From contig NZ_QYUO01000002.1 of the NCBI RefSeq assembly GCF_003591035.1, positions 1,054,001 to 1,118,000 of the forward strand: 64,000 nucleotides of DNA, written 5' to 3'. Positions 9,188 through 22,540 of this stretch are shown here, in pieces. Within the stretch, counting starts at the first letter, position 1, and each line of letters begins with the position of its first letter. The notes beneath the pieces were generated by a model. That model did no database searches and had not been told where the DNA came from. It saw nothing but the letters and a program-made list of their open reading frames with translations. The stretch is from Noviherbaspirillum saxi (GTDB lineage Bacteria > Pseudomonadota > Gammaproteobacteria > Burkholderiales > Burkholderiaceae_D). The position numbers were made by a program, and so were the translations under genes.

Positions 9188-10393
9188 ATGAATGCGAAGT
9201 ACGTCGTGTTAAGAAACAACCGCTTACTGACAAGCGATCCGTTTGCGCGGGCATTTGGAATGGCCGAGGCAACGCCTGCAGGGACAGCTGTCCCTAGCGG
9301 CTTTTCAATCGAGGTTAGTGATCTAAGGAAAAAGGACTTAGTTGCAAAAAACCGCGAGGCCGATGTGGAAATCATTGCTCCGGTAATGCGCATGAAGCTG
9401 ATAGAACCGCATGCCACGACCAACGAAGAACGTGTGCAAGCGGCGTCGCCCAATGTTGCGTGGGGCATAGAGGCCATTGGCGCGGACACTTCACCTTTTA
9501 CAGGAGAGGATATTGTTGTCGCAGTGCTCGATACCGGCATCGATGCCGGACATCCCGCATTTGCCGGCGTACAAATTATCGAGAAGGACTTCACTGGTGA
9601 AGGGAACGGTGACCAGAACGGCCATGGAACCCATTGCGCCGGAACCATTTTTGGCCGTGACATAAACGGCAAGCGTATCGGTGTTGCAAGAGGAGTTAAA
9701 AAGGCATTGATCGGCAAGGTCTTGGGAGAGAGAGGCGGGGGATCCACTGAAGGAATTTGTGAGGCAATTCAATGGGCGATCCAGAACGGTGCCAACGTCA
9801 TATCCATGTCCCTGGGTATGGACTTCCCTGGTTGGGTTGCGCAGTTAAAAGCGGGGGGAATTCCTGAAAATGTTGCAGTATCGATGGCCTTGGAAGACTA
9901 CCGTAAGAACGTAATGCTTTTCGAAAGGCTGGCGTCATTTATAAAGGCCAATGGTGCGTTTTCGCAGACCGCGTTGATTGTTGCCGCAGCTGGCAATGAA
10001 AGTGGCCGCAGACCGCCCAAGCCTTGGGAGATTTCGGTGTCGCCGCCGGCGGTCGCAGACGGGATTGTGTCGGTCGGCGCATTGGGGGTAGCTGCAAATG
10101 GATTTGCGGTGGCACCGTTCTCTAATACCGGGCCAAATATATCAGGCCCCGGCGTCGACGTATTCTCAGCCTGGAAGAATGGCGATACGAAATCATTGTC
10201 CGGAACCAGCATGGCGACGCCGCATATTGCTGGAGCGGCAGCACTCTGGGCTGACAAGCTGAAGAAAGCAGGCAACTTCACAGCCGTTCAATTAGCGGCA
10301 AGCTTGATAGGATCCGGATCGACCAATAAATTTATAGATGAATTCGATCCGACCGATGTAGGCGCTGGAATGGTTCAATGCCCGCAAGATTAG
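9188..10393 (+). CDS. Subtilisin-like S8 serine protease, apparently cytoplasmic
   Basis: A 401-residue S8 peptidase. The catalytic triad is complete: Asp115 in VLDTGID, His146 in GHGTH and Ser341 in SGTSMATPH, with the oxyanion Asn270 in AAGNES. About 95 residues precede the catalytic domain and look like a prodomain or regulatory segment. There is no signal peptide, which is unusual for a free subtilase and fits intracellular proteases of conflict systems. GAGGA lies about 6 bp before the ATG. TTGACA at 9077-9082 could be part of its promoter, but no good -10 element follows. A strong terminator at 10451-10488 ends the unit, so it is transcribed separately from the downstream trypsin/NTPase genes. 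Confidence 0.9.
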   Translation: MNAKYVVLRNNRLLTSDPFARAFGMAEATPAGTAVPSGFSIEVSDLRKKDLVAKNREADVEIIAPVMRMKLIEPHATTNEERVQAASPNVAWGIEAIGADTSPFTGEDIVVAVLDTGIDAGHPAFAGVQIIEKDFTGEGNGDQNGHGTHCAGTIFGRDINGKRIGVARGVKKALIGKVLGERGGGSTEGICEAIQWAIQNGANVISMSLGMDFPGWVAQLKAGGIPENVAVSMALEDYRKNVMLFERLASFIKANGAFSQTALIVAAAGNESGRRPPKPWEISVSPPAVADGIVSVGALGVAANGFAVAPFSNTGPNISGPGVDVFSAWKNGDTKSLSGTSMATPHIAGAAALWADKLKKAGNFTAVQLAASLIGSGSTNKFIDEFDPTDVGAGMVQCPQD

Positions 10394-10450
10394 GCTGATG
10401 GCAGCAGCACAAAGTTTGTGCCTAAGCATCAATGACATGGTTAGTACGTT

Positions 10451-10488
10451 CCGCCGAGCTGCACCGGTTTCAGCTCGGCGGTTTGTTT
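10451..10488 (+). terminator. Rho-independent terminator after the S8 protease gene
   Basis: CCGCCGAGCTG at 10451-10461 pairs perfectly with CAGCTCGGCGG at 10471-10481 (11 bp stem, 9 nt loop), followed by TTTGTTT. It lies 58 bp after the protease stop codon. Confidence 0.85.
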
Positions 10489-10581
10489 CAGTCATTGCTC
10501 ATGCTGAAGAAAGAGGAAGGTCAAGGAAACGATCAAAAGAGAAAGGTAAGGGCAACGAAGTAGCGTGGTGAGGGAGAACAT

Positions 10582-11742
10582 GTGCGAATTAACCCAGCTG
10601 TGTTAATGGGGATTTTTATGAGCTTCTCGTTTCTGCCTATGGGTCCGGCGCGTGCCGAATCCGAATCCGGAACGCTAAAGGCGTTCTTCTTTTACGCAAC
10701 AGAGGAAATCCCGACAGGTCTCGCGGACAAATGTCCTCCACGACCGGAAGTCGAGATGCCGGTTGCTGTTGCAGGCATCGTCACCGATATTGCCGTGAGC
10801 CTGATTGGCAAGGCGGCGGAAAGCCTTGTCGACGCCGTGGCGGCCCGAACGCAGGCCGAGGCGACGACTCTCGATGTCACCCTGCCGATCGAGGGCTTCT
10901 TTACCGAGAAGGGTTCGGTCGCAGTTACTGGCGGGTGTTTATTGTTCCACAACGGGAATAACGCCGACGCGAGCGATGCGAGTCTGTTGATGTCTCTTGC
11001 GCTGGTTCCTTCATTCGACGGATCGGCCTTCCGCTTCAACGTCTTTCAGTGGCGCTTCAACCGGTTCCTGAACCCGAACCCGTCGCATTTCTTTCAGAAT
11101 TCCAGGCTACGCGATGTCGTCCTCAAGATCGAATTCCTGACTCCTAGTTCAGCAGGACTCGGAACGAGGGCCGTGTTCGTTGAACATGTATTTCAGGGAG
11201 TCGACCAGAAAGCTGTGGAAAACGCCTTTCTCACCAATCAGCGTTTGCCGTGGTTCGCGTCTCCATCGAAACCGACGCTTCCCTCCAGCACGCCTCCAGG
11301 CAGGTACGGCCCGTTGAATGTCCGCATCACCATCATCGAGACCACGCGACCGAATCAGTTCGCGCGGTGGGTTCAGGATATCGCCAAGGAAAAGAGGACC
11401 GATATTGCGAATGCCGCAAAAGGTGCATTGCGTCAATCGCTTGATTCCAACTTCGCGGCGACTGAACAAATGAAATTGAACGATGCCGCCGCCACGGCAT
11501 ATACCGGCTACAAGACGGCATGGGACGATGCGATAACTTACCGCGGACAGAAACCGAAGAAGCTCGATGCCGCGGCAGATCAAGCCGCGAAGGAAAAGTA
11601 CAGCGCGGACTTGCTTGCCTGGCAAAGTAATCTGACTGTGAAGAGCCAAAACGTGAGCGCCAAGAGAACGCTCGCGAGATCCGCTTTTGAGGCGGCCGAT
11701 CTGAGCTGGCCGGGCGATCTGCCGGCGGTGAATATCGATTAG
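10582..11742 (+). CDS. Unknown exported protein in the protease island
   Basis: A 386-residue protein not recognised as a known family. The N-terminus is a Sec-type signal peptide: a short basic start, a hydrophobic core to about residue 20, and cleavage probably after ARA near residue 25. The middle is a strand-rich domain with a glycine-cysteine segment near residue 114. The last ~120 residues are helical, charged and Ala/Lys-rich (possible coiled coil). GTG is the likely start with AGGGAG about 6 bp before it; in-frame ATGs at codons 9 and 13 would truncate the signal peptide. It lies 36 bp upstream of the protease-remnant ORF and may be the first gene of that operon. Confidence 0.6.
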   Translation: MRINPAVLMGIFMSFSFLPMGPARAESESGTLKAFFFYATEEIPTGLADKCPPRPEVEMPVAVAGIVTDIAVSLIGKAAESLVDAVAARTQAEATTLDVTLPIEGFFTEKGSVAVTGGCLLFHNGNNADASDASLLMSLALVPSFDGSAFRFNVFQWRFNRFLNPNPSHFFQNSRLRDVVLKIEFLTPSSAGLGTRAVFVEHVFQGVDQKAVENAFLTNQRLPWFASPSKPTLPSSTPPGRYGPLNVRITIIETTRPNQFARWVQDIAKEKRTDIANAAKGALRQSLDSNFAATEQMKLNDAAATAYTGYKTAWDDAITYRGQKPKKLDAAADQAAKEKYSADLLAWQSNLTVKSQNVSAKRTLARSAFEAADLSWPGDLPAVNID

Positions 11743-11766
11743 CGAACATGCCTTCTCCGCAACTGA

Positions 11767-11829
11767 AAGGAGTGCTTTATGGACAGCAATGACGATATCG
11801 ATGATCGTCTTGATCTCACCGCCCACTTT
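11767..11829 (+). repeat. Direct repeat, copy 1: ribosome site and first 17 codons of the type-A protease
   Basis: This 63 bp segment (SD AAGGAG, ATG and 16 further codons) matches 16953-17015 almost base for base. It marks the 5' end of a degenerate copy of the trypsin-like protease gene whose intact copy is fused to the NTPase downstream. Confidence 0.9.
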
Positions 11830-11913
11830 GAGACCGACGGCAAATCGCCGCAGATCTTGCGCGAGGTGTTGAAATCCCGCGGTGTCGTGCTGGTTGACAG
11901 CCTTTGCGGCTGA
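11779..11913 (+). pseudogene. 44-codon internal-deletion remnant of the type-A trypsin-like protease gene
   Basis: A complete short ORF with a good ribosome site (AAGGAG, 7 bp before ATG). Its first 17 residues (MDSNDDIDDRLDLTAHF) match the start of the protease module at 16965, and its last 27 (from ETDGKSPQ to the stop) match the end of the same module at 18102-18185. Since 17+27=44, the ORF is that 406-residue protein with 362 residues removed exactly in frame. The whole peptidase domain is gone. Because both termini, the ribosome site and the 12 bp spacer to the next gene are preserved, it may still be translated and couple expression to the gene at 11926. Called pseudogene, but a retained peptide function cannot be excluded. 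Confidence 0.85.
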
Positions 11914-11938
11914 TCTGGAAGCACCATGCTGCCCATCG
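11830..11938 (+). repeat. Direct repeat, copy 1: end of type-A protease, spacer and start of type-B gene
   Basis: This 109 bp matches 18102-18210: the last 27 codons plus stop of the type-A protease, the 12 bp spacer TCTGGAAGCACC (CCTGGAAGCGCC in the other copy) and the first codons ATG CTR CCC ATC of the type-B protein. It shows that the A-to-B gene junction once existed twice. Confidence 0.9.
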
Positions 11939-13821
11939 AAAACATAGCCGCTTCGATTTTCGCGTCGCGCTCGTCGTTCGGCCGGCTGTTCCTGCAGGTG
12001 CAGGTGGATCATGTCGCCGATCCTGCGCTTCGCACTGCCTTCGAGGCGGTCGGACTGTCCGGAGTGGATAGAGAGGCATACAAATCCGCGCTGGAATATG
12101 CACAGGCGAACGGATGGCTGGAACCGCTGGTGCATGCGTTGGTCGAGGAGAATCTGGAGGATGGCGAGATTGCAGGATCTCTCGTCGAGAGCGCTAGTGC
12201 TTCGGGCGAGAGACGTGCCAAATTGCAAGCCATGACCAATCTCGCGCGAGGATTCGACAATCCCGCGCTCATCTATCGCGGCATCGCGAGCGGCATGCGC
12301 TGGACGGTGAAAGTGATCGTGAATGGAGAGGTGAAAGGCACCGGCATTCTTATCGGTCCGCATCTGGTTCTGACTGCATGGCATGTCGTGAGTGCACTTT
12401 TCTCGCATGGTGTTAGTGGCGGTTATGAGCCGGTCGCGACCGCTGGGTCGAAACTCCGGGTCGAGTTCGACGATTTTCTTGCCTTGGTTAGTTCTGGAGC
12501 ATTCGCGCCGCGCTCAACCTTAACAGTGCCGGCGCACAAGGAATGGTGTGTCATCTTCAGCCACTGTCATGCGGCTGAGTTAAATGACACACTTCCAGAC
12601 GACCTGAACGAGCTCGACGGGCTGTGGGATTACGCGGTGATTCGTCTTGCGGAATGCCCGGGTATCGAGCGACGTTGGGCATCGCTCGATGCGCGAGCTG
12701 TAGTTCCCAGAGCCAATTCAAGAATCATCGTGTTTCAACATCCCGCCACACAGCCACTCAAAACCGATCAAGCCGATATTGTGGTAGCGGAGGCGGCTAC
12801 GGCCGCTGCCATTCCGCGTTTGCGTTTTCTTCATGCAGCGAATGCGACTGGCGGATCGTCGGGCGGTCCTTGCTTTGATAAGACGTTCATGCTGTTCGGT
12901 TTGCATCAGGGGGTATGGACGCAGTCAACTGCCAACCGCACGATCAACCGTGGCGTGCCTATTCAGCGTGTGATCGAAGACTACAAGGAGAAGATAAAAG
13001 ATCTTCCCGTTCCCGATCCGTCCGACAGTCCAATCTGGCGTGTAGCAGATTTAAGCGCGCCGGTGATCGGCTGCGATGTTTTCCAGACTATGGTCTGGCG
13101 ATCCGCGATCGCCGGCATGCCGCGAGTGATTTCCATTCAGGGTGAAGCCTTCACGGGGAAGACGTTTCGTCTCGCTGTGCTTTCCGCCATGCTTTCAGAT
13201 GGCAGCCATCTGAAAATCGAGCTTGACGCAACGACAATTTCCAAATTGAACGCAGTAGAGTTGGCGCAGGAAATCTGTAAGGCTGCGGGGGTAGCGGATC
13301 ATCCCATTTTTGCGCCGGTCACAGAATTTGCTTCGACTCCCGCGGCTTGGCTGCGCGGCGAAGTGCTGCCTAAGCTGATGGCAGCCCTTGATGCCGCGCG
13401 GGCCGGCCGCCTTGTGTGGCTGACTATCGCCGAGCTCAACAAGACCGACATCCAGGGTGAGAATGCTTCGGCATTGCTGCTTTCGATCTATGGACAGACT
13501 CGCTCCTCCGAATGGTTACGCATCGTGCTCGACGGCATGAAGGGCGATTTGCCCGCCGCCATTCACCCGCTATCCGATCGCGATGACGTTATGCCGCTCG
13601 ACGTGGACGACATAAAAGTCTATGTGAGGCGGGCAATTGTGGGAATGGAACTTCAAGTGCCGAACGAATTTCTGGTCAGCGTGCTCGCCGAGATGACGAT
13701 GACGGACTACCGCAAGTGGCGCATCGGAGATCCGTCAAGTGCTCTGAGTCTTCTTGCCGAGCGCGTGAGTTTCATCGTCCGGATTTACCTCAAAGATGCC
13801 GCTGCCGGAGGCTACTCATAA
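11926..13821 (+). CDS. Trypsin-like protease with N-terminal helical adaptor and C-terminal P-loop module (type B)
   Basis: A 631-residue protein. Residues 1-95 are helical and resemble effector-associated adaptor domains found on bacterial STAND/protease conflict proteins (inference). Residues 110-345 are a trypsin-like peptidase with His153 in TAWH, Asp235 in LWDYAV and Ser312 in GGSSGGP, so it should be active. Residues 390-631 contain a P-loop GEAFTGKT (406-413) but are short for a full STAND ATPase and may be a degenerate or adaptor NTPase. No signal peptide, hence cytoplasmic. The stop overlaps the start of the next gene by one base (TAATG at 13819-13823), indicating coupled expression and probably a physical complex. 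Confidence 0.8.
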   Translation: MLPIENIAASIFASRSSFGRLFLQVQVDHVADPALRTAFEAVGLSGVDREAYKSALEYAQANGWLEPLVHALVEENLEDGEIAGSLVESASASGERRAKLQAMTNLARGFDNPALIYRGIASGMRWTVKVIVNGEVKGTGILIGPHLVLTAWHVVSALFSHGVSGGYEPVATAGSKLRVEFDDFLALVSSGAFAPRSTLTVPAHKEWCVIFSHCHAAELNDTLPDDLNELDGLWDYAVIRLAECPGIERRWASLDARAVVPRANSRIIVFQHPATQPLKTDQADIVVAEAATAAAIPRLRFLHAANATGGSSGGPCFDKTFMLFGLHQGVWTQSTANRTINRGVPIQRVIEDYKEKIKDLPVPDPSDSPIWRVADLSAPVIGCDVFQTMVWRSAIAGMPRVISIQGEAFTGKTFRLAVLSAMLSDGSHLKIELDATTISKLNAVELAQEICKAAGVADHPIFAPVTEFASTPAAWLRGEVLPKLMAALDAARAGRLVWLTIAELNKTDIQGENASALLLSIYGQTRSSEWLRIVLDGMKGDLPAAIHPLSDRDDVMPLDVDDIKVYVRRAIVGMELQVPNEFLVSVLAEMTMTDYRKWRIGDPSSALSLLAERVSFIVRIYLKDAAAGGYS

Positions 13822-16800
13822 TGACGATGCGCAATCAGAATGCCGTTGATTTCGCGGCAAGCGTGGAGCGAGCTCTGCGTGCCAGACGGGGCGAAACCGA
13901 ACCGGTTACCGTTTCCAGCGATGACTCGATACGTACACCGGTTAGTGCGGTGTTGTTTTGCGAGGTCGAAGCGCGTGCTGCCTTGTCGGGTCATTTCGAA
14001 CCCGGCAGTATCCTTGGCCCTGATTTGACGAAAGGCGAACGGATTGCGGTCCTGAGTCGCCTTGCCCCTTTATGCGTGGTGCGCACTGACCAATCCGCCA
14101 CGCGGTGGCTCATGCAGGCAAAGGAACGAACCAGAGTGTTGCAGCAGCTCGCCGCGCATCGCCAGTTGCAGACGCGGCTCGCAGAGCCGCTACCCGAGAC
14201 CGACCGCTTCGGTGAGATTCTTCGGGAAATGCTCAAGACAGGTTCGGTGTCGGATCTCGACAGATTGTCGCGTTCCGATCTGCTCGCGACGGCCTCTGCC
14301 TGGGAGATCCTGTCCAGCCTGAACCTCGTGACACTGGACGAAAGCAAACTCCGGCGCTTGATCACGCAGGCAGAGTTTTTGGCTGATTACGATGCGCTCC
14401 TGGAGGATGGCTTCCTTGGACGCGAAGAGCAGTTGAATTCGTTGCGCGACTTTCTTGGTGGGGCTACTGACAACACAAACCCGTCTCGCCTGAACAGCAT
14501 GATCCTGACCGGCCTCGGCGGCGCGGGAAAGTCGACGCTGCTCGCAAAGTTCGCGCGCGAGATCACTAGTTTTGGCACTGCCACCCTGGTGGTTCTCGAC
14601 TTCGATCGCCCGGCCATCGATGCCGGCGACACCTATTGGCTGGAAATGGAAATTGCCCGCCAGGTAGGCTGCCAGTATCCCGATCTGGATGAGAGCTTGC
14701 GCCATGTTCGCGAAACTATTCGTCACTTCAAGGGCGATACGGAAAAAGGCACAGCATCCTTTACTCCCGAGTACGCGTCGTTAGAGCGCGGTTTTCGCAG
14801 CGTCATCGATGGCGTTCGTGATGCATTACGATCCGTCTCAGGGCATCACCGTCCCATCTTGCTGATTCTCGATACCTTTGAAGAAGTTGCGCAACGTGAT
14901 CTGATCGACAGAATGATCAATTGGTTACGCGAGATTGCAGACCGATTTTTTCCCATTCCACTGAAAGTAATTTTTTCAGGACGGCTGTTCGACAGAGCGC
15001 TTGCGAGGCTCAAGGATCACGGTACGGGGGAGTCTTTGAACGTTGATGCACTGGATCCCATACTTGCCGAGCAACTGCTGAAGCAGCTCGATGTGCCGGA
15101 TACCTGGGCTCGGCGTCTAGCCTATTCCGAGGTGCTGCCGCGCCGGCCGCTAGAGCTCAAGTTGCTCGCACGCCTCATTAAATCGAGCGGTGATGAGTCC
15201 ATCGACACGCTCGAAGAAGAAATTCGCAATGGCGGGCCGGCGGCAAGCGAGCTCTTCGCAGGACTGGTGTATCGCCGCGTGCTGCTTCGCGTCAGCGAAG
15301 AGGCTCGCTCGCTTGCCTTTCCGGGACTGGTGTTGCGATACCTGACGAAGGAACTGATTCAGAATGTTCTTGTGCCGGCATTGGATCTGACTCCCATCGA
15401 CGAGGAAAGTGCGGGCAAGGCGCTGGATGCTCTCGCCGGATACGAATGGCTCGCGTATCGCCAAGGGGATGAAGTCTGGCACCGCAAGGACCTCCGGCGC
15501 TCGATGCTGAAAGCAATGGTTGCGAAAGAACGTGAACGGGCAAGAAAAATCAACCGGCAAGCGGTCATCCACTTCAGCGAAGAATCCGACGGCCGATCAC
15601 GCTCGGAGGCGATATACCACCGCTTGATGCTGGCGGATTCAGCGGACACGCTCGAGAATCTTGAGCACGGAGAACTGGCTAGAGCGAATGAGCACATAGG
15701 GGGAGACATTGTCGATCTGCCACCTGCCGCGCAAGCGCTCCTGCGCTTTGCGGCTGGCATGGAGGTGCGGATGGATGATGTGCCGCTGCTGCCGCAGAAA
15801 TACCGGTACGAGGCATACAGTAGCCTGGGAAGCCGGAACACCGGCGATCGTGAATTCGGGCTTGCGCTGAGACTGATCCGTACAGCTCGCGACTCCCAAG
15901 CGCAGCTCTTGCCATGGGAACGTGAGACTTTGTTCGCAACCGGATCGTGGGACGAACTGTGCAAGTGGCCACCGAAACTTGAACCGGGCGGCTTTCGCAG
16001 GCTGGCCTACGCGTTCTATCCGGCTGCGATCGTCGCACCGGAAGTGCTGGATCCGGTCATGCGGGAGAGGATGCTTGTCGAGACGCCCCGACCATCCCGG
16101 TTCAATCTGTTGACGTCCGAGCGGCAGACGCTGTTGGAACGCTTCGCTCTTGGTGTGGTGCTTGCCAATGACTATAGAGCTTTGAGGCGTCACGAACATG
16201 ATGCGCTAAGCAAACTGATGAGCGCCATCGATCAGGACGAAAAGAACTTTCCTGCTTCGCCGTCGACACAACGACGATTCTTTCTCCTGGACTTGATTTG
16301 CGGCTCGACGAACCGGGAGCGCATGGTGGCCCTTACACCATTCCATGTGAAGCTCGATCCGCGATGGCTTCGGCGCGCCTCCGAAATCACAAAGCGTTTG
16401 GCCGATTCCACTGCGCGTAACGATATGGAAGCGTTCATTGCACGTGTGCATTCGGTTCTAGCTTCCTCTGAAAATGTCTCAGCCCGCGCGATGCTGGGCG
16501 CCGTTTCCGCACTTGCCACAGCGGAAAAACAACTTGCCGAAGTCTGGTTTCCGCTTACGGGGCTGGACGCGCCCGATGTTCTCGAACTGTTGCAGGGGCC
16601 GGACCCTGAATTCAGAAACCCATGCCGCTTTGCGCTCTTGAATGCATTCTCGGGATCAGCCGACTATGCGGTACTGAGCAAGATTTTCGCAACGTCTTTT
16701 CCGCTGCCAGTGGCCGATGTCCAGACCGATATCTTTCAGAGTACGGTCTCGACAGACCCCGAACATGGTCTTGAAGCTTTCGTCGAGCTTGCCGACCGCA

Positions 16801-18185
16801 GCGGTACGCTGTGCCAAGTGATGCAGCTTGCCTGCCGTGCCAAACCACAATCGAAGCAGCTTGCAGAAGTCGCCAGCGCGCACGAACGTTGGAGGATGGC
16901 TGTCCGCCGTCTCTTAACCAAATCCCGGGAAACTCGCATTCTTCACAACCGCAAGGAGAGCTTTATGGACAGCGATGACGAGATCGATGATCGTGTGGAT
17001 CTCACCGCCCACTTCCTGACTACGCTGAGAAGCGGTCCGCGTAAGGCAGCCGGCCTTGAAATAGTGAGCGATACCGGCGAGGTCGACTTATCCGACTCCG
17101 CTATCAAGAATCGGCTCGGTGAAACGGAGGCGGAACTGGGGCGCATTATCAAGGATTATCTGAACGACCGGCCCGAGCTCTATCGTGTTGCCGATGAGAT
17201 CCTGAAGACGGGCGACACCGCGCTTCGGATGCTGCGTGACGGAGACGATCAAGCACTACGACGAGATCGACGTATCTTGGCGAGCCTGGAAACCATCGTT
17301 CGTGTCGACGGCTCTCGCCCTTCGTTTCTCGTCCGAAAGGGTGAGGTAGATCGCAAGTCGAGTCCGCTCGGCAGCTGGGGAAACACGCTGGACGCCAGCG
17401 AGAGTCTGCTCACGGACGCATTTTCCTGCGTCGGCCGGATCGACGATCCGGCTGCGGAACAAGGATTTCAAGGAACAGGCTTTCTGGTTGCAGAGAATCT
17501 CATTGTTACCAACCGCCATGTCTTGCAAATGATTGCAGCGCGTGATGCCCATGGGGTCTGGCAAATCAGTCCCCAGGTAAGGATCGACTTCGGCCATGAG
17601 TTCCGCGGTAACGAAAGTGTGACACCGCGTGCGCTCAAGTCGGTTGTCTTCGCCCGGCCTGAGGCGATTGCGAGCGCTGCGCCGATCGACCACGCCAAGC
17701 TCGATCTGGTCCTGATCGAACTTGCACCTGCCGCCACCGCCGACCGGCCGCGGACCGTTCTGTCGGTCGATATCGCGCGCGACTGGGCGCAACCGATGCT
17801 GACGACATTCGTTGTAGGTTACGCGGGAAATCCCGGTTTCGATGCCTTCACGCCCACGCTGCTGGAGCAACTCTTTAAATCGACATTCGGGTTCAAGCGT
17901 GTGGCACCGGGACTCACCATGGCATCGCAAGCTTCGGTACAGCCCTGGACGTTTGCGCATGATGCAACGACCCTGGGCGGCAACTCTGGCTCGGTGGTTT
18001 TGGTGGCGGGCCGCGAGACAATTGCGGCCGGTCTTCACTATGGCGGCAGGCGAGCCGATCCGCGAGAAAACTGGGGACATGTGCTCGGGTTGACGCTTGA
18101 TCAGACCGACGGAAAATCACCGCAGACCTTGCGTGAGGTGTTGAAGTCGCGCGACGTTGTGCTGGTGGACAGTCTTGGCGGCTGA
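13821..18185 (+). CDS. Giant STAND-like NTPase fused to a trypsin-like protease (type C fused to type A)
   Basis: A 1454-residue protein. The ATG overlapping the previous stop was chosen; the frame stays open 35 codons further upstream but those lie inside the type-B gene. Residues 1-200 are helical. A STAND/AAA-type NTPase follows, with Walker A GLGGAGKST (231-239) and Walker B ILLILD (346-351). Winged-helix and TPR-like helical regions extend to about 1034. Residues 1049-1454 are a second protease module: a helical lead, then a trypsin fold with His1233, Asp1295 and Ser1389 (GGNSGS). Residues 1035-1048 are translated former intergenic DNA including the protease gene's own ribosome site. The architecture suggests an NTP-driven sensor that activates a protease, as in antiviral STAND or related systems; that role is inferred. 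Confidence 0.8.
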   Translation: MTMRNQNAVDFAASVERALRARRGETEPVTVSSDDSIRTPVSAVLFCEVEARAALSGHFEPGSILGPDLTKGERIAVLSRLAPLCVVRTDQSATRWLMQAKERTRVLQQLAAHRQLQTRLAEPLPETDRFGEILREMLKTGSVSDLDRLSRSDLLATASAWEILSSLNLVTLDESKLRRLITQAEFLADYDALLEDGFLGREEQLNSLRDFLGGATDNTNPSRLNSMILTGLGGAGKSTLLAKFAREITSFGTATLVVLDFDRPAIDAGDTYWLEMEIARQVGCQYPDLDESLRHVRETIRHFKGDTEKGTASFTPEYASLERGFRSVIDGVRDALRSVSGHHRPILLILDTFEEVAQRDLIDRMINWLREIADRFFPIPLKVIFSGRLFDRALARLKDHGTGESLNVDALDPILAEQLLKQLDVPDTWARRLAYSEVLPRRPLELKLLARLIKSSGDESIDTLEEEIRNGGPAASELFAGLVYRRVLLRVSEEARSLAFPGLVLRYLTKELIQNVLVPALDLTPIDEESAGKALDALAGYEWLAYRQGDEVWHRKDLRRSMLKAMVAKERERARKINRQAVIHFSEESDGRSRSEAIYHRLMLADSADTLENLEHGELARANEHIGGDIVDLPPAAQALLRFAAGMEVRMDDVPLLPQKYRYEAYSSLGSRNTGDREFGLALRLIRTARDSQAQLLPWERETLFATGSWDELCKWPPKLEPGGFRRLAYAFYPAAIVAPEVLDPVMRERMLVETPRPSRFNLLTSERQTLLERFALGVVLANDYRALRRHEHDALSKLMSAIDQDEKNFPASPSTQRRFFLLDLICGSTNRERMVALTPFHVKLDPRWLRRASEITKRLADSTARNDMEAFIARVHSVLASSENVSARAMLGAVSALATAEKQLAEVWFPLTGLDAPDVLELLQGPDPEFRNPCRFALLNAFSGSADYAVLSKIFATSFPLPVADVQTDIFQSTVSTDPEHGLEAFVELADRSGTLCQVMQLACRAKPQSKQLAEVASAHERWRMAVRRLLTKSRETRILHNRKESFMDSDDEIDDRVDLTAHFLTTLRSGPRKAAGLEIVSDTGEVDLSDSAIKNRLGETEAELGRIIKDYLNDRPELYRVADEILKTGDTALRMLRDGDDQALRRDRRILASLETIVRVDGSRPSFLVRKGEVDRKSSPLGSWGNTLDASESLLTDAFSCVGRIDDPAAEQGFQGTGFLVAENLIVTNRHVLQMIAARDAHGVWQISPQVRIDFGHEFRGNESVTPRALKSVVFARPEAIASAAPIDHAKLDLVLIELAPAATADRPRTVLSVDIARDWAQPMLTTFVVGYAGNPGFDAFTPTLLEQLFKSTFGFKRVAPGLTMASQASVQPWTFAHDATTLGGNSGSVVLVAGRETIAAGLHYGGRRADPRENWGHVLGLTLDQTDGKSPQTLREVLKSRDVVLVDSLGG
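16953..16967 (+). promoter_or_regulatory. Internal ribosome-binding site and start codon for a separate 406-residue protease
   Basis: AAGGAG at 16953-16958 lies 6 bp before ATG 16965-16967, in frame within the 1454-residue ORF. The same ribosome site precedes the remnant ORF at 11779, so it is the original start of the type-A protease gene. A free protease (16965-18185) may therefore be made in addition to the fusion protein. Confidence 0.7.
16953..17015 (+). repeat. Direct repeat, copy 2: ribosome site and first 17 codons of the type-A protease
   Basis: Second copy of the segment at 11767-11829, here in frame inside the large NTPase-protease ORF. Only a few substitutions separate the two, mostly at third codon positions. 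Confidence 0.9.
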
Positions 18186-18210
18186 CCTGGAAGCGCCATG
18201 CTACCCATCG
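18102..18210 (+). repeat. Direct repeat, copy 2: end of type-A protease, spacer and start of type-B gene
   Basis: Second copy of 11830-11938, of identical length (109 bp). Homology to the type-B gene stops abruptly after its first four codons. Confidence 0.9.
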
Positions 18211-18267
18211 CGCCGGCAGCATGAACGTTGGAGGACAGCCGTCCACCGCCTATTAGGCAAATGGTAA
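18198..18267 (+). pseudogene. Scar of a deleted second type-B/type-C gene pair
   Basis: ATG CTA CCC ATC at 18198-18209 is the start of a second type-B gene, placed 12 bp after the protease stop exactly as at 11926. After the fourth codon it switches to the 3' end of a type-C gene: 18223-18267 encodes ERWRTAVHRLLGKW and TAA, matching ERWRMAVRRLLTK at residues 1022-1034 of the large protein. Everything between (roughly 5 kb if copy 2 resembled copy 1) has been lost. The scar also shows where the unfused type-C protein used to stop, one codon past the conserved lysine. Confidence 0.85.
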
Positions 18268-18298: not shown

Positions 18299-19222
18299 AT
18301 GACCGCTGATCTGACCCGCCAGGCGACGCTCAAAGACATGATCCGGATCGGTCCGGATCCATTCGAAGACCTGGAGAGGGCTGGCAGGGAACCGACGACT
18401 TCCGCCGACGAATTCCATGGCCGATCCGGTTATGAACCCGAGTTCCTGAGCGGCTGGCAGATACTGCTGCCGCAGCCATCGGATGACGTACGTGAGCTGC
18501 GTCGTGGCGGACCCGGCATCGAGCTTAAGTACCAGAACTTTTCTGTGATCATGTCTGCATCGCGTCGCCTGCCGATCATCACTGCGGCGAACATTGACGG
18601 CTCGCAGTCGCGGCGCGTGCCACGCATCAGCACCTGGAGCTTCGATGGCCGCCTTGACAAGGAAGACCAGTGGGGCGACGCGCTCTACGACGGTAACGCT
18701 CTCGATCGCGGCCACATGGTCAGGCGTGAAGACCCGATATGGGGCAGCCGCGCAGAAGCAAATACCGCCAATGCGGATACGTTCCACTTCACGAATAGCT
18801 GCCCCCAGATGGCCGGCGTCAATCAAAAGGTCTGGCTCGGCCTCGAAGATTATGTGTTGCAGCATGCCAGGGTCGACCGGATGAGGGTGTCTGTATTTAC
18901 CGGCCCCTTCTTTGGAAAGAATGACCTGGCGTATCGCAGTGCCCTGGTCCCCAAGGCATTCTGGAAAGTCGTCGCGATCGTCACCGAGGATGGCAGACCG
19001 TCGGCGACCGCATACAAAGTCGATCAGGTAAAGGAACTGGAAGAGCTCGAATTCGTCTACTCGGCGTACAAGACCTTCCAGATCAGTATCAATCAGGTGA
19101 TGAAGGCAACAAAGATAGACTTCAGCGGGTTGGTGCCGTTTGATGGATTCTCGCAACATGAAAATGCCACGGGAACCGACCTGATCGAACGGCTCGATTC
19201 GCTCGAGAGCGTTCGGGTATAG
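18299..19222 (+). CDS. DNA/RNA non-specific endonuclease (beta-beta-alpha metal finger, EndoG/NucA family)
   Basis: A 307-residue nuclease. The family signature DRGHM gives the catalytic His139. Downstream, FTNSCPQMAGVNQKVW gives the Mg2+-binding Asn175 and the following Trp. There is no signal peptide, unlike the secreted nucleases of this family, so it would act inside the cell unless held in check. A Shine-Dalgarno AGGAG lies about 9 bp before the ATG, and the gene follows the deletion scar by 31 bp, in the same direction as the protease/NTPase genes. This suggests the toxic effector of the module (inference). Its 3' end converges on the dehydrogenase gene at 19275. Confidence 0.87.
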   Translation: MTADLTRQATLKDMIRIGPDPFEDLERAGREPTTSADEFHGRSGYEPEFLSGWQILLPQPSDDVRELRRGGPGIELKYQNFSVIMSASRRLPIITAANIDGSQSRRVPRISTWSFDGRLDKEDQWGDALYDGNALDRGHMVRREDPIWGSRAEANTANADTFHFTNSCPQMAGVNQKVWLGLEDYVLQHARVDRMRVSVFTGPFFGKNDLAYRSALVPKAFWKVVAIVTEDGRPSATAYKVDQVKELEELEFVYSAYKTFQISINQVMKATKIDFSGLVPFDGFSQHENATGTDLIERLDSLESVRV

Positions 19223-21520: not shown

Positions 21521-22540
21521 ATGAGTGACAACCCAGAGACATCAACAAAGCAAATCTCCCCCGTATTCGTCACGGATGACGCGGTGACGGCTGTGGCCGA
21601 CTGGCGTGCGGCCGTCGCCGTGCTCCGTGACGCATATTCCAGACCGATGGCGCCCGAGATGGTGCCTCCACGCACGATGGCCCGGGGACAGGGCTTTTGG
21701 CTGCGCGGCCTCTGTGCAATCTCGCCATCCGGCGAGTACATGGGCTGCAAGCTGATTGCCGCGTCGCCCAAGATTCATCGCGCAAGTTACCTGATTTCCC
21801 TGTTCGACCAGCGGACCATGGATCTGGCTGCTCTGGTGGACGGAAACCGTGTCACTGGAATCCGTACCGCTGCCACATCGGCCGTGGCAGTTGACTTGCT
21901 GGCGCCCCAGCGTCCCCTGCGGATCGCGATCATCGGTTCTGGCTTTGAAGCCAAAGGCTTGCTGGAAGCCGTCCTGTCGATCCGCGAGGTGGCGGAGGCT
22001 CGGGTCTTTAGCCCGACCCCGGCCAGCCGGACCCGGTTCGCCGATAGTTTCCGGCAACAGGCCGGGCTCAACATCACGGCAGCCGATTCGGCGGAACAGG
22101 CAGTTCGCAATGCCGACGTAGTGTTATGCGCGGCACGCAGCCGGGATGAAACCCCGGTGATGCGCGGCGAATGGCTGAGCCAGGGCGCGACGGTGGTGTC
22201 GATTGGCTCCACGCTGCCGGAACAGCGTGAAGTCGACGAGACGACTCTCGGCCGCGCGCACCGGATCGTCGCCGACATGCCCGAGGAAGTTGCGCATGAC
22301 ACGGGCGATGCGCTGGCAGCCAAGGCCGCCGGCATCGATGTGGAGGGCAAGATGGTCTCGCTCGCCGATGTCGCAAGCGGTCGTGTACAGGGACGCACGT
22401 TCGACTCGGAGATCGTGATTTACAAATCCGTCGGCTCTGCCCTGCAGGACGTGGTGATCGCGGAGATGTTGCTCAAGCGGGCTAGTCAGGAACGCCTGAC
22501 GACGGCCATGCCGGCAACTGTTCTGACGATCGACAAGTGA
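21521..22540 (+). CDS. Ornithine cyclodeaminase/mu-crystallin family protein
   Basis: A 339-residue protein with the family's Rossmann motif IAIIGSGFEAKGL near residue 138 and the upstream substrate-site region GNRVTGIRTAATSAVAV. Members include ornithine cyclodeaminase, alanine dehydrogenase and imine reductases. In a catabolic cluster it more likely reduces a keto or imino intermediate than makes proline (inference). It is the first gene of a unit with the DHDPS-family aldolase (29 bp later) and the aldehyde dehydrogenase. It is divergent from the flavin monooxygenase. Confidence 0.82.
   Translation: MSDNPETSTKQISPVFVTDDAVTAVADWRAAVAVLRDAYSRPMAPEMVPPRTMARGQGFWLRGLCAISPSGEYMGCKLIAASPKIHRASYLISLFDQRTMDLAALVDGNRVTGIRTAATSAVAVDLLAPQRPLRIAIIGSGFEAKGLLEAVLSIREVAEARVFSPTPASRTRFADSFRQQAGLNITAADSAEQAVRNADVVLCAARSRDETPVMRGEWLSQGATVVSIGSTLPEQREVDETTLGRAHRIVADMPEEVAHDTGDALAAKAAGIDVEGKMVSLADVASGRVQGRTFDSEIVIYKSVGSALQDVVIAEMLLKRASQERLTTAMPATVLTIDK

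Follow-up and report, generated by a model that had tools for sequence, protein, structure and literature searches.

In a stretch of 64,000 nucleotides (nt) from Noviherbaspirillum saxi (NZ_QYUO01000002.1; hereafter the window, whose positions are used throughout), we analyzed an operon built from three gene types and a nuclease gene. Types A and B encode trypsin-like peptidases, type C encodes a STAND NTPase, and NUC encodes the nuclease. The protein set is already known: its genes fall in the CARD-NLR, LypABC-like, or 'System 3' family. A first-pass annotation had proposed that the genes once stood as A1-B1-C1-A2-B2-C2, and we followed up this proposal. The genes of the operon are as follows, with fusions written as "::".

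11779-11913, plus strand: A1 remnant, an open reading frame (ORF) of 44 codons; junction at 11829-11830, where 362 codons are gone in frame
11926-13821, plus strand: B, with a six-helix N-terminal bundle, a trypsin-like peptidase, and a P-loop domain (Pfam Trypsin_2, 1.1e-10)
13821-18185, plus strand: C::A, a single ORF of 1454 codons plus stop
13821-16922, plus strand: C, STAND/NLR-like ATPase (AAA_16, 1.3e-8; motifs GLGGAGKS and LILDTFEE, Walker A and B)
16923-16964, plus strand: C1-A2 linker of 14 residues, SRETRILHNRKESF, mostly translated A leader
16965-18185, plus strand: A2, trypsin-like peptidase (Trypsin_2, 6.3e-8) with TNRHV, LDLVLIE, and GGNSGS present
18299-19222, plus strand: NUC, Endonuclease_NS (PF01223, 4.2e-43) with DRGH and TNSCPQ present

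Comparison of the locus with itself revealed four scars, which contain remains of genes otherwise lost.

11745-11828, plus strand: A1 leader with ribosome-binding site and first A1 codons; matches 16931-17014 (84 nt, 86%)
11831-11938, plus strand: last A1 codons, spacer, and B1 start; matches 18103-18210 (108 nt, 86%)
18198-18210, plus strand: B2 start, identical to the B1 start at 12 of 13 nt
18219-18267, plus strand: last C2 codons and stop, HERWRTAVHRLLGKW then stop, with the TAA at 18265-18267

All three repeat pairs were ungapped, the third one joining the end of C (16880-16923) to its downstream remnant (18219-18262; 44 nt, 80%). The same pairs were recovered by blastn (79 nt at 87%, 108 nt at 86%, and 44 nt at 80%), and their best ungapped scores of 60, 78, and 26 compare with maxima of 14, 15, and 14 in random sequences (30 first-order Markov sequences per pair). 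The first-pass annotation had matched 11767-11829 with 16953-17015 and, at equal length, 11830-11938 with 18102-18210, and had placed a second B start at 18198-18209 and a second C end at 18223-18267. These matches are real, and the first one extends upstream to 11745, covering the ribosome-binding leader of A. What is left of A1 is the leader and 44 of 406 codons, 17 from the start and the others from the end; this agrees with the in-frame loss of 362 codons read earlier. The reduction of B2 and C2 to their ends was borne out as well, only the B2 start and the C2 end being matched.

The B2 start is directly followed by the C2 end, whose TAA lies 31 nt upstream of the nuclease start. In both copies, the spacer from the A stop to the B start is 12 nt. 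Because the deletions spared the gene ends with their ribosome-binding sites and the 12-nt A-B spacer, B and the nuclease would have remained translated. We also considered that the repeats might be a widespread element unrelated to these genes. A search of the 6.5-Mb genome with the scar DNA returned four places per query, of which one and two lay outside the locus, with E values of 0.31 to 0.36. With no further copy in the genome, this candidate was rejected.

The remnants of each lost gene (the A1, B2, and C2 scars) stand where a doubled block predicts them. The A1-B1-C1-A2-B2-C2 arrangement explains every scar, and the unfused A-B-C order that it predicted was found in relatives (see below). 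We consider it very probable that the locus is a circularly permuted CARD-NLR-like immune operon, in which two tandem A-B-C sets and one nuclease gene were turned by complementary losses into B, C::A, and nuclease. The two sets would have stood upstream of the single nuclease gene, and the losses would have taken out the interior of A1 along with almost the whole of B2 and C2.

One complete set (B, C, A, and nuclease) keeps its catalytic and nucleotide-binding motifs. In the whole genome there is a single B; A occurs once in full, with a further match of 27 residues in the A1 stub. As to the earlier claim of one working set with A fused behind C, the one remaining set has intact motifs and an open C::A frame, and it includes a further member, the Endonuclease_NS gene at 18299, as its fourth gene. 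This gene stands directly behind the C2 end, as a nuclease follows C in several relatives (L009, L023, L036, and L086), and its product is likely the effector of the operon.

The linker of C::A retains the ribosome-binding site of A, and a free A may therefore also be made. In the A1 leader, the linker frame is closed by a TGA at 11764-11766, where the A2 leader has CGC. Thus, if the A1 leader is the older one, this leader stop was also lost, besides the stop of C1 itself. Rather than by deletion, the fusion of C to A most likely began where the two sets met.

Gene order in relatives and its changes

Gene order was read in 24 loci in which an A-type gene, B, and C could all be placed. They came from all 13 genome-collection loci, 9 of 35 plasmid records, and genomes from further searches. 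We left out L012, L015, L017-L020, L027 and L084 (the same plasmid), L030, and L039-L042, each lacking one of the three types or showing it only in part or ambiguously, and also short-match loci repeating these places. The 24 loci are partly non-independent (L028 is close to L029, and L009 to L086), and C is broken in L028.

A precedes B in 17 of these 24 loci. In six of the 17, A forms the C-terminal portion of a larger protein (L013, L023, L025, L028, L029, and L037). Unfused A-B-C, the order to be looked for according to the first-pass annotation, stands with a nuclease gene behind it in three: Fibrella (L009), L086, and L036, the last being a genome of the window's own genus whose B is about 31% identical. 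The nearest locus of known order, from Caballeronia (L008), is also A-B-C. Since A comes first in most relatives and three of them carry unfused A-B-C-nuclease, the B-C::A-nuclease order of the window, fusion included, is most likely derived. Two loci have B-C-A-nuclease, L022 on a Hymenobacter plasmid and L087; we count them as one case because their cassettes are 95.5% identical in DNA. Five others have B-C-trypsin::nuclease, the LypABC arrangement (L024, L026, L083, L085, and L089). Read directly from the DNA, then, are the scars and their order, the intact motifs, the open C::A frame, and the fact that A-B-C(-nuclease) is the commonest order in the relatives read.

Fusions of C were surveyed among 120 listed of its 146 relatives, the window included. 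Six are C::nuclease (P0137, P0162, P0194, P0197, P0208, and P0232; domains as listed, three of the six also scanned individually) and two are fused to A, namely, the window (P0126) and P0189. A distant C relative, P0242, has EAD1 and a trypsin, counted as neither A nor B, fused behind the ATPase, a further sensor-protease fusion of another make. P0286 joins a trypsin of type A to an N-acetylmuramoyl-alanine amidase domain, another candidate effector for the family. In L088 (4953-13323, minus strand), the order is A-B-C-trypsin-nuclease, one trypsin lying upstream and another, of the LypC type, behind C; it is possibly a state between the two subtypes. LypC-type trypsin::nuclease genes were also seen in L038 (2513-4903), beside a separate A-B-C set, and in L039 (7550-9613) and L040 (8043-10394), where no C was found in either stretch. 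They are perhaps a movable module. The Fibrella locus contains a 109-nt direct repeat (78%; 14045-14148 and 22167-22275) whose first copy begins at the nuclease gene's end and whose second lies 8 kb away, perhaps marking the boundary of an inserted cassette. A second C in the Hymenobacter plasmid record was examined as a candidate tandem array and rejected, as it sits in redundant record ends. The two ends of this record (NZ_CP095048.1; L022 and L063) carry the same 20.7 kb, 98.8% identical with 247 gap positions and split ORFs. The repeated ends include other genes as well; the record is an unclosed, error-rich circular contig.

The family is patchy. B was found in 5 of 196 related genomes (E 0.001) and in 5 of 398 across the phylum (E 1e-8), the window's genome being counted in each. 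At class level, the C alignment (E 1e-20) retrieved 1 of 369 genomes, the window's own. Phage records searched with B gave no match, nor did IMG/VR yield a relative when searched with B and with the C alignment.

Trees were built for A (50 rows) and for C, first with 120 rows and then, more carefully, with 34 rows covering 18 of the 24 loci; this careful tree leaves out L013, L016, L025, L026, and L029, which have long branches, and the broken L028. The window A groups with that of the Caballeronia A-B-C locus (99/91), and the nuclease-fused trypsins stand apart from A proper (100/99). On the careful C tree, the window pairs with P0127 (99/87) and then with Caballeronia (100/95), and the same neighbors stand beside it in the first C tree. 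P0189 (C::A) and P0194 (C::nuclease) are fully supported sisters. The two are identical at 866 of 1076 aligned C columns and then switch abruptly, one to A and the other to nuclease. Parsimony gave three changes of order (17 of 34 rows having a known order), and still three when the C::nuclease rows were scored A-first. Forcing the four B-C-A rows together was rejected (p-AU 5.8e-31), the constrained group having been named after the earlier trees, but by gene order. A single origin of the B-C-A order was thus discarded. Because the trees are unrooted, A-first as the ancestral state rests on its spread over separate branches. It is likely that a similar change arose independently in two other lineages, of the L022/L087 and P0189 types, in which the route is not visible.

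Protein features and neighboring genes

The catalytic residues of the B peptidase (H153, D235, and S312) are invariant in 57 rows, and the P-loop of the window's B reads GEAFTGKT. Trypsin_2 matched all 57 rows, AAA_22 38, and AAA_16 31 (E up to 1), and neither AAA family was found in the window's own B. An AlphaFold2 model of B (mean predicted local distance difference test score, 90.7) predicts six helices within residues 4-92, followed by the peptidase and an ATPase-like domain. Foldseek and VIA-align lists for B were mostly filled by the protease part, so that the N-terminal domain was hardly probed; no death-fold family appeared among the 25 listed of 60 Pfam families for B. The model of C scored 83.9, and its best solved matches were Cdc6/ORC, CED-4, and NLRP2 (E 3e-5 to 1e-3, with low template-modeling [TM] scores). 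Matches of the model to these three and to Avs4 were all weak (TM by query 0.2 or less), which would be in keeping with C being an NLR-like protein.

PADLOC gave single-protein labels only, that is, 'subtilase' for an upstream S8 peptidase, 'trypsin-like' for B, and 'nacht' for A, and NCBIfam gave no name for the system. The 'nacht' model (PDLC03010) matched the trypsin-like A (16965-18185; E 8.6e-23) and not the ATPase, and its label therefore looks misplaced. The region immediately upstream of the A1 stub (9188-11742) encodes an isolated S8 peptidase and an uncharacterized, probably exported protein:

9188-10393, plus strand: S8 subtilisin-like peptidase gene (Pfam Peptidase_S8, E 3.2e-40)
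10582-11742, plus strand: uncharacterized gene with a signal-peptide-like start (by eye), its stop lying just before the A1 leader

Scans of the latter product with Pfam and NCBIfam gave no match at E 0.01. Some relatives carry S8 adjacent to A or B or as a fusion with either; L025, L028, and L029 have it annotated with the protein that bears A. The S8 gene of the window is a possible accessory of the cassette.

Known systems, competing explanations, and meaning

CARD-NLR anti-phage systems have been described in Lysobacter enzymogenes and Azospirillum (via PMC13236601). They comprise an NLR-like ATPase, a trypsin-ATPase with an N-terminal helical domain, and a separate effector, for which endonucleases are reported as alternatives to gasdermin (PMC13236601). 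The window has the corresponding STAND ATPase with Walker A and B motifs and a trypsin-like peptidase joined to an ATPase domain. It differs by its permuted order, its C::A fusion, and the remnants of a second set, and the helical bundle of its B is a CARD-like candidate only. In LypABC of Caulobacter crescentus (PMC13236601), LypA corresponds to B and LypB to C, and the trypsin and nuclease come last; L083 is a Caulobacter genome with this arrangement. In contrast to the separate A and NUC genes of the window, LypC is one trypsin::nuclease protein, a type whose trypsins form a clade other than that of A. The similar order of LypABC is thus not the same event as that of the window, and this candidate was rejected. 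'System 3' (Kaur et al. 2020, PMC7159879) has trypsin-like peptidases, an S8 peptidase, Endonuclease_NS, and a STAND NTPase. Proteolytic activation of the nuclease was proposed there, multiple peptidases occurring with a NucA-type endonuclease, and the window too has such an endonuclease with trypsin-like peptidases. However, section 32 of that paper reports no duplication or permutation. EAD1, which is found on one trypsin in a subset of 'System 3', had no match in the window's B and matched 2 of 57 B rows, with a best E of 0.067.

That a trypsin-like protease can activate a pro-nuclease was shown for Hachiman/AVAST (PMC12799240). By analogy, the window would work alike, under the control of its sensor, although the nuclease there is of the metallo-beta-lactamase type and that of the window is Endonuclease_NS. 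Taking these known systems together, we infer the following cascade. C would sense infection and assemble via its ATPase; B, recruited by way of the helical domain at its N terminus, would have its peptidase switched on; together with A it would make up a proteolytic cascade by which the nuclease is activated or released, and the infected cell would be killed. The C::A fusion would tie one protease to the sensor. As for the rearrangement, it recalls the tandem duplication and random loss described, in the sources consulted, for mitochondrial genomes, where a block is doubled, complementary members are lost, and the order changes. The window differs in being a bacterial immune operon in which the ends of lost genes are readable and a gene fusion is a by-product. 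Our literature search, largely of open-access papers, found no account of permutation or duplication in CARD-NLR or other defense operons, and tandem duplication is not treated in the parts examined of a gene-order paper (PMC12190745).

A variant of the proposed history is that the second A-B-C set, or part of it, was already diverged when it was imported from a related cell and recombined beside the resident one, the same losses following. We hold this to be nearly as probable as not. Over the A and C scar codons, we counted 15.5 differences over 38.8 synonymous sites and 10.5 over 132.2 non-synonymous sites (Nei-Gojobori), that is, a synonymous divergence (dS) of about 0.57, rough because sites are few, and a non-synonymous one (dN) of about 0.08. 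The probability that a neutral stretch yields such a synonymous share (15.5 of 26) is about 1e-4, and neutral decay of the scars was rejected on this ground. Being mostly synonymous, the differences (about 14%, with no indels in the matched parts) indicate that the copies diverged mostly while coding, as working genes, and that the deletions came later. They also mean that the second set may have diverged elsewhere and been imported, instead of having been duplicated in place, and the patchy occurrence of the system adds to this. Yet no donor was found, and over the short scars A1 and A2 are closer to each other (by eye) than to the closest known A, P0246, so that a recent common source is possible too. 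We regard it as very improbable that B-C-A-nuclease is the ancestral order, the upstream A and the downstream B and C fragments being pieces inserted later. The scar-free B-C-A-nuclease of L022 and L087 and the five LypABC-type loci speak for it. But A comes first on many separate branches, the LypABC-type trypsins belong to a clade other than that of A, and each inserted fragment would have had to land at the exact position predicted from A-B-C-nuclease. A different kind of alternative concerns function: the operon may now be a lysis or housekeeping device rather than an anti-phage one, as LypABC was co-opted by gene transfer agents (PMC13236601). That functional precedent exists, and the 10 neighboring proteins tested have metabolic, signaling, or unknown roles, none being a known defense protein. 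Still, the spread of the family in patches across phyla and its carriage on plasmids look like defense, and we consider a lysis or housekeeping role rather unlikely.

Several observations weigh against the doubling and complementary loss of an immune operon. An intact A-B-C-A-B-C array, for which the first-pass annotation had suggested looking, was seen in no locus read. Self-comparison of L087, L022, L008, L009, and L086 revealed no repeat of the A, B, and C ends, so that the doubling-and-loss route is direct for the window only. Weak matches within genes were limited to 16 nt in L008 (E 0.44), 35 nt at 80% in L009 (E 0.13), and two of 21-22 nt in L086 (E 0.08 and 0.27), and the stronger self-repeats in L009, L022, and L086 fall outside A, B, and C. 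Tandem copies within a single genome tend to be homogenized or to collapse, and a dS of about 0.57 is high for them. Two distant loci are ordered otherwise, nuclease-A-C-B in L012 (4190-12970) and nuclease-C-B-A in L015 (6102-14870), with weak and partial B matches. Finally, the catalytic residues of the C. crescentus LypC nuclease were dispensable for lysis (PMC13236601).

Altogether, it is well supported that the window contains an ordinary member of its family with an unusual, legible history of two sets, complementary loss, permuted order, and a new fusion. Swapped and fused modules are known in defense operons, but the steps in between seldom survive. In the window, what remains at the ends of lost genes gives the order of the steps, and two further lineages with a similar change make the route testable. 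P0189 and P0194 illustrate that the sensor can exchange its downstream partner and yet remain about 80% identical. Whether doubling and complementary loss is a recurrent route by which CARD-NLR operons are reordered and fused, taken at least three times (in the window, the Hymenobacter type, and the P0189 type), appears to us evenly balanced. If so, A would leave its position at the head of the operon and come to lie beside the sensor or be fused with it, rewiring the sensor without inversion or transposition, and the window would be the sole case in which the intermediate can still be read.

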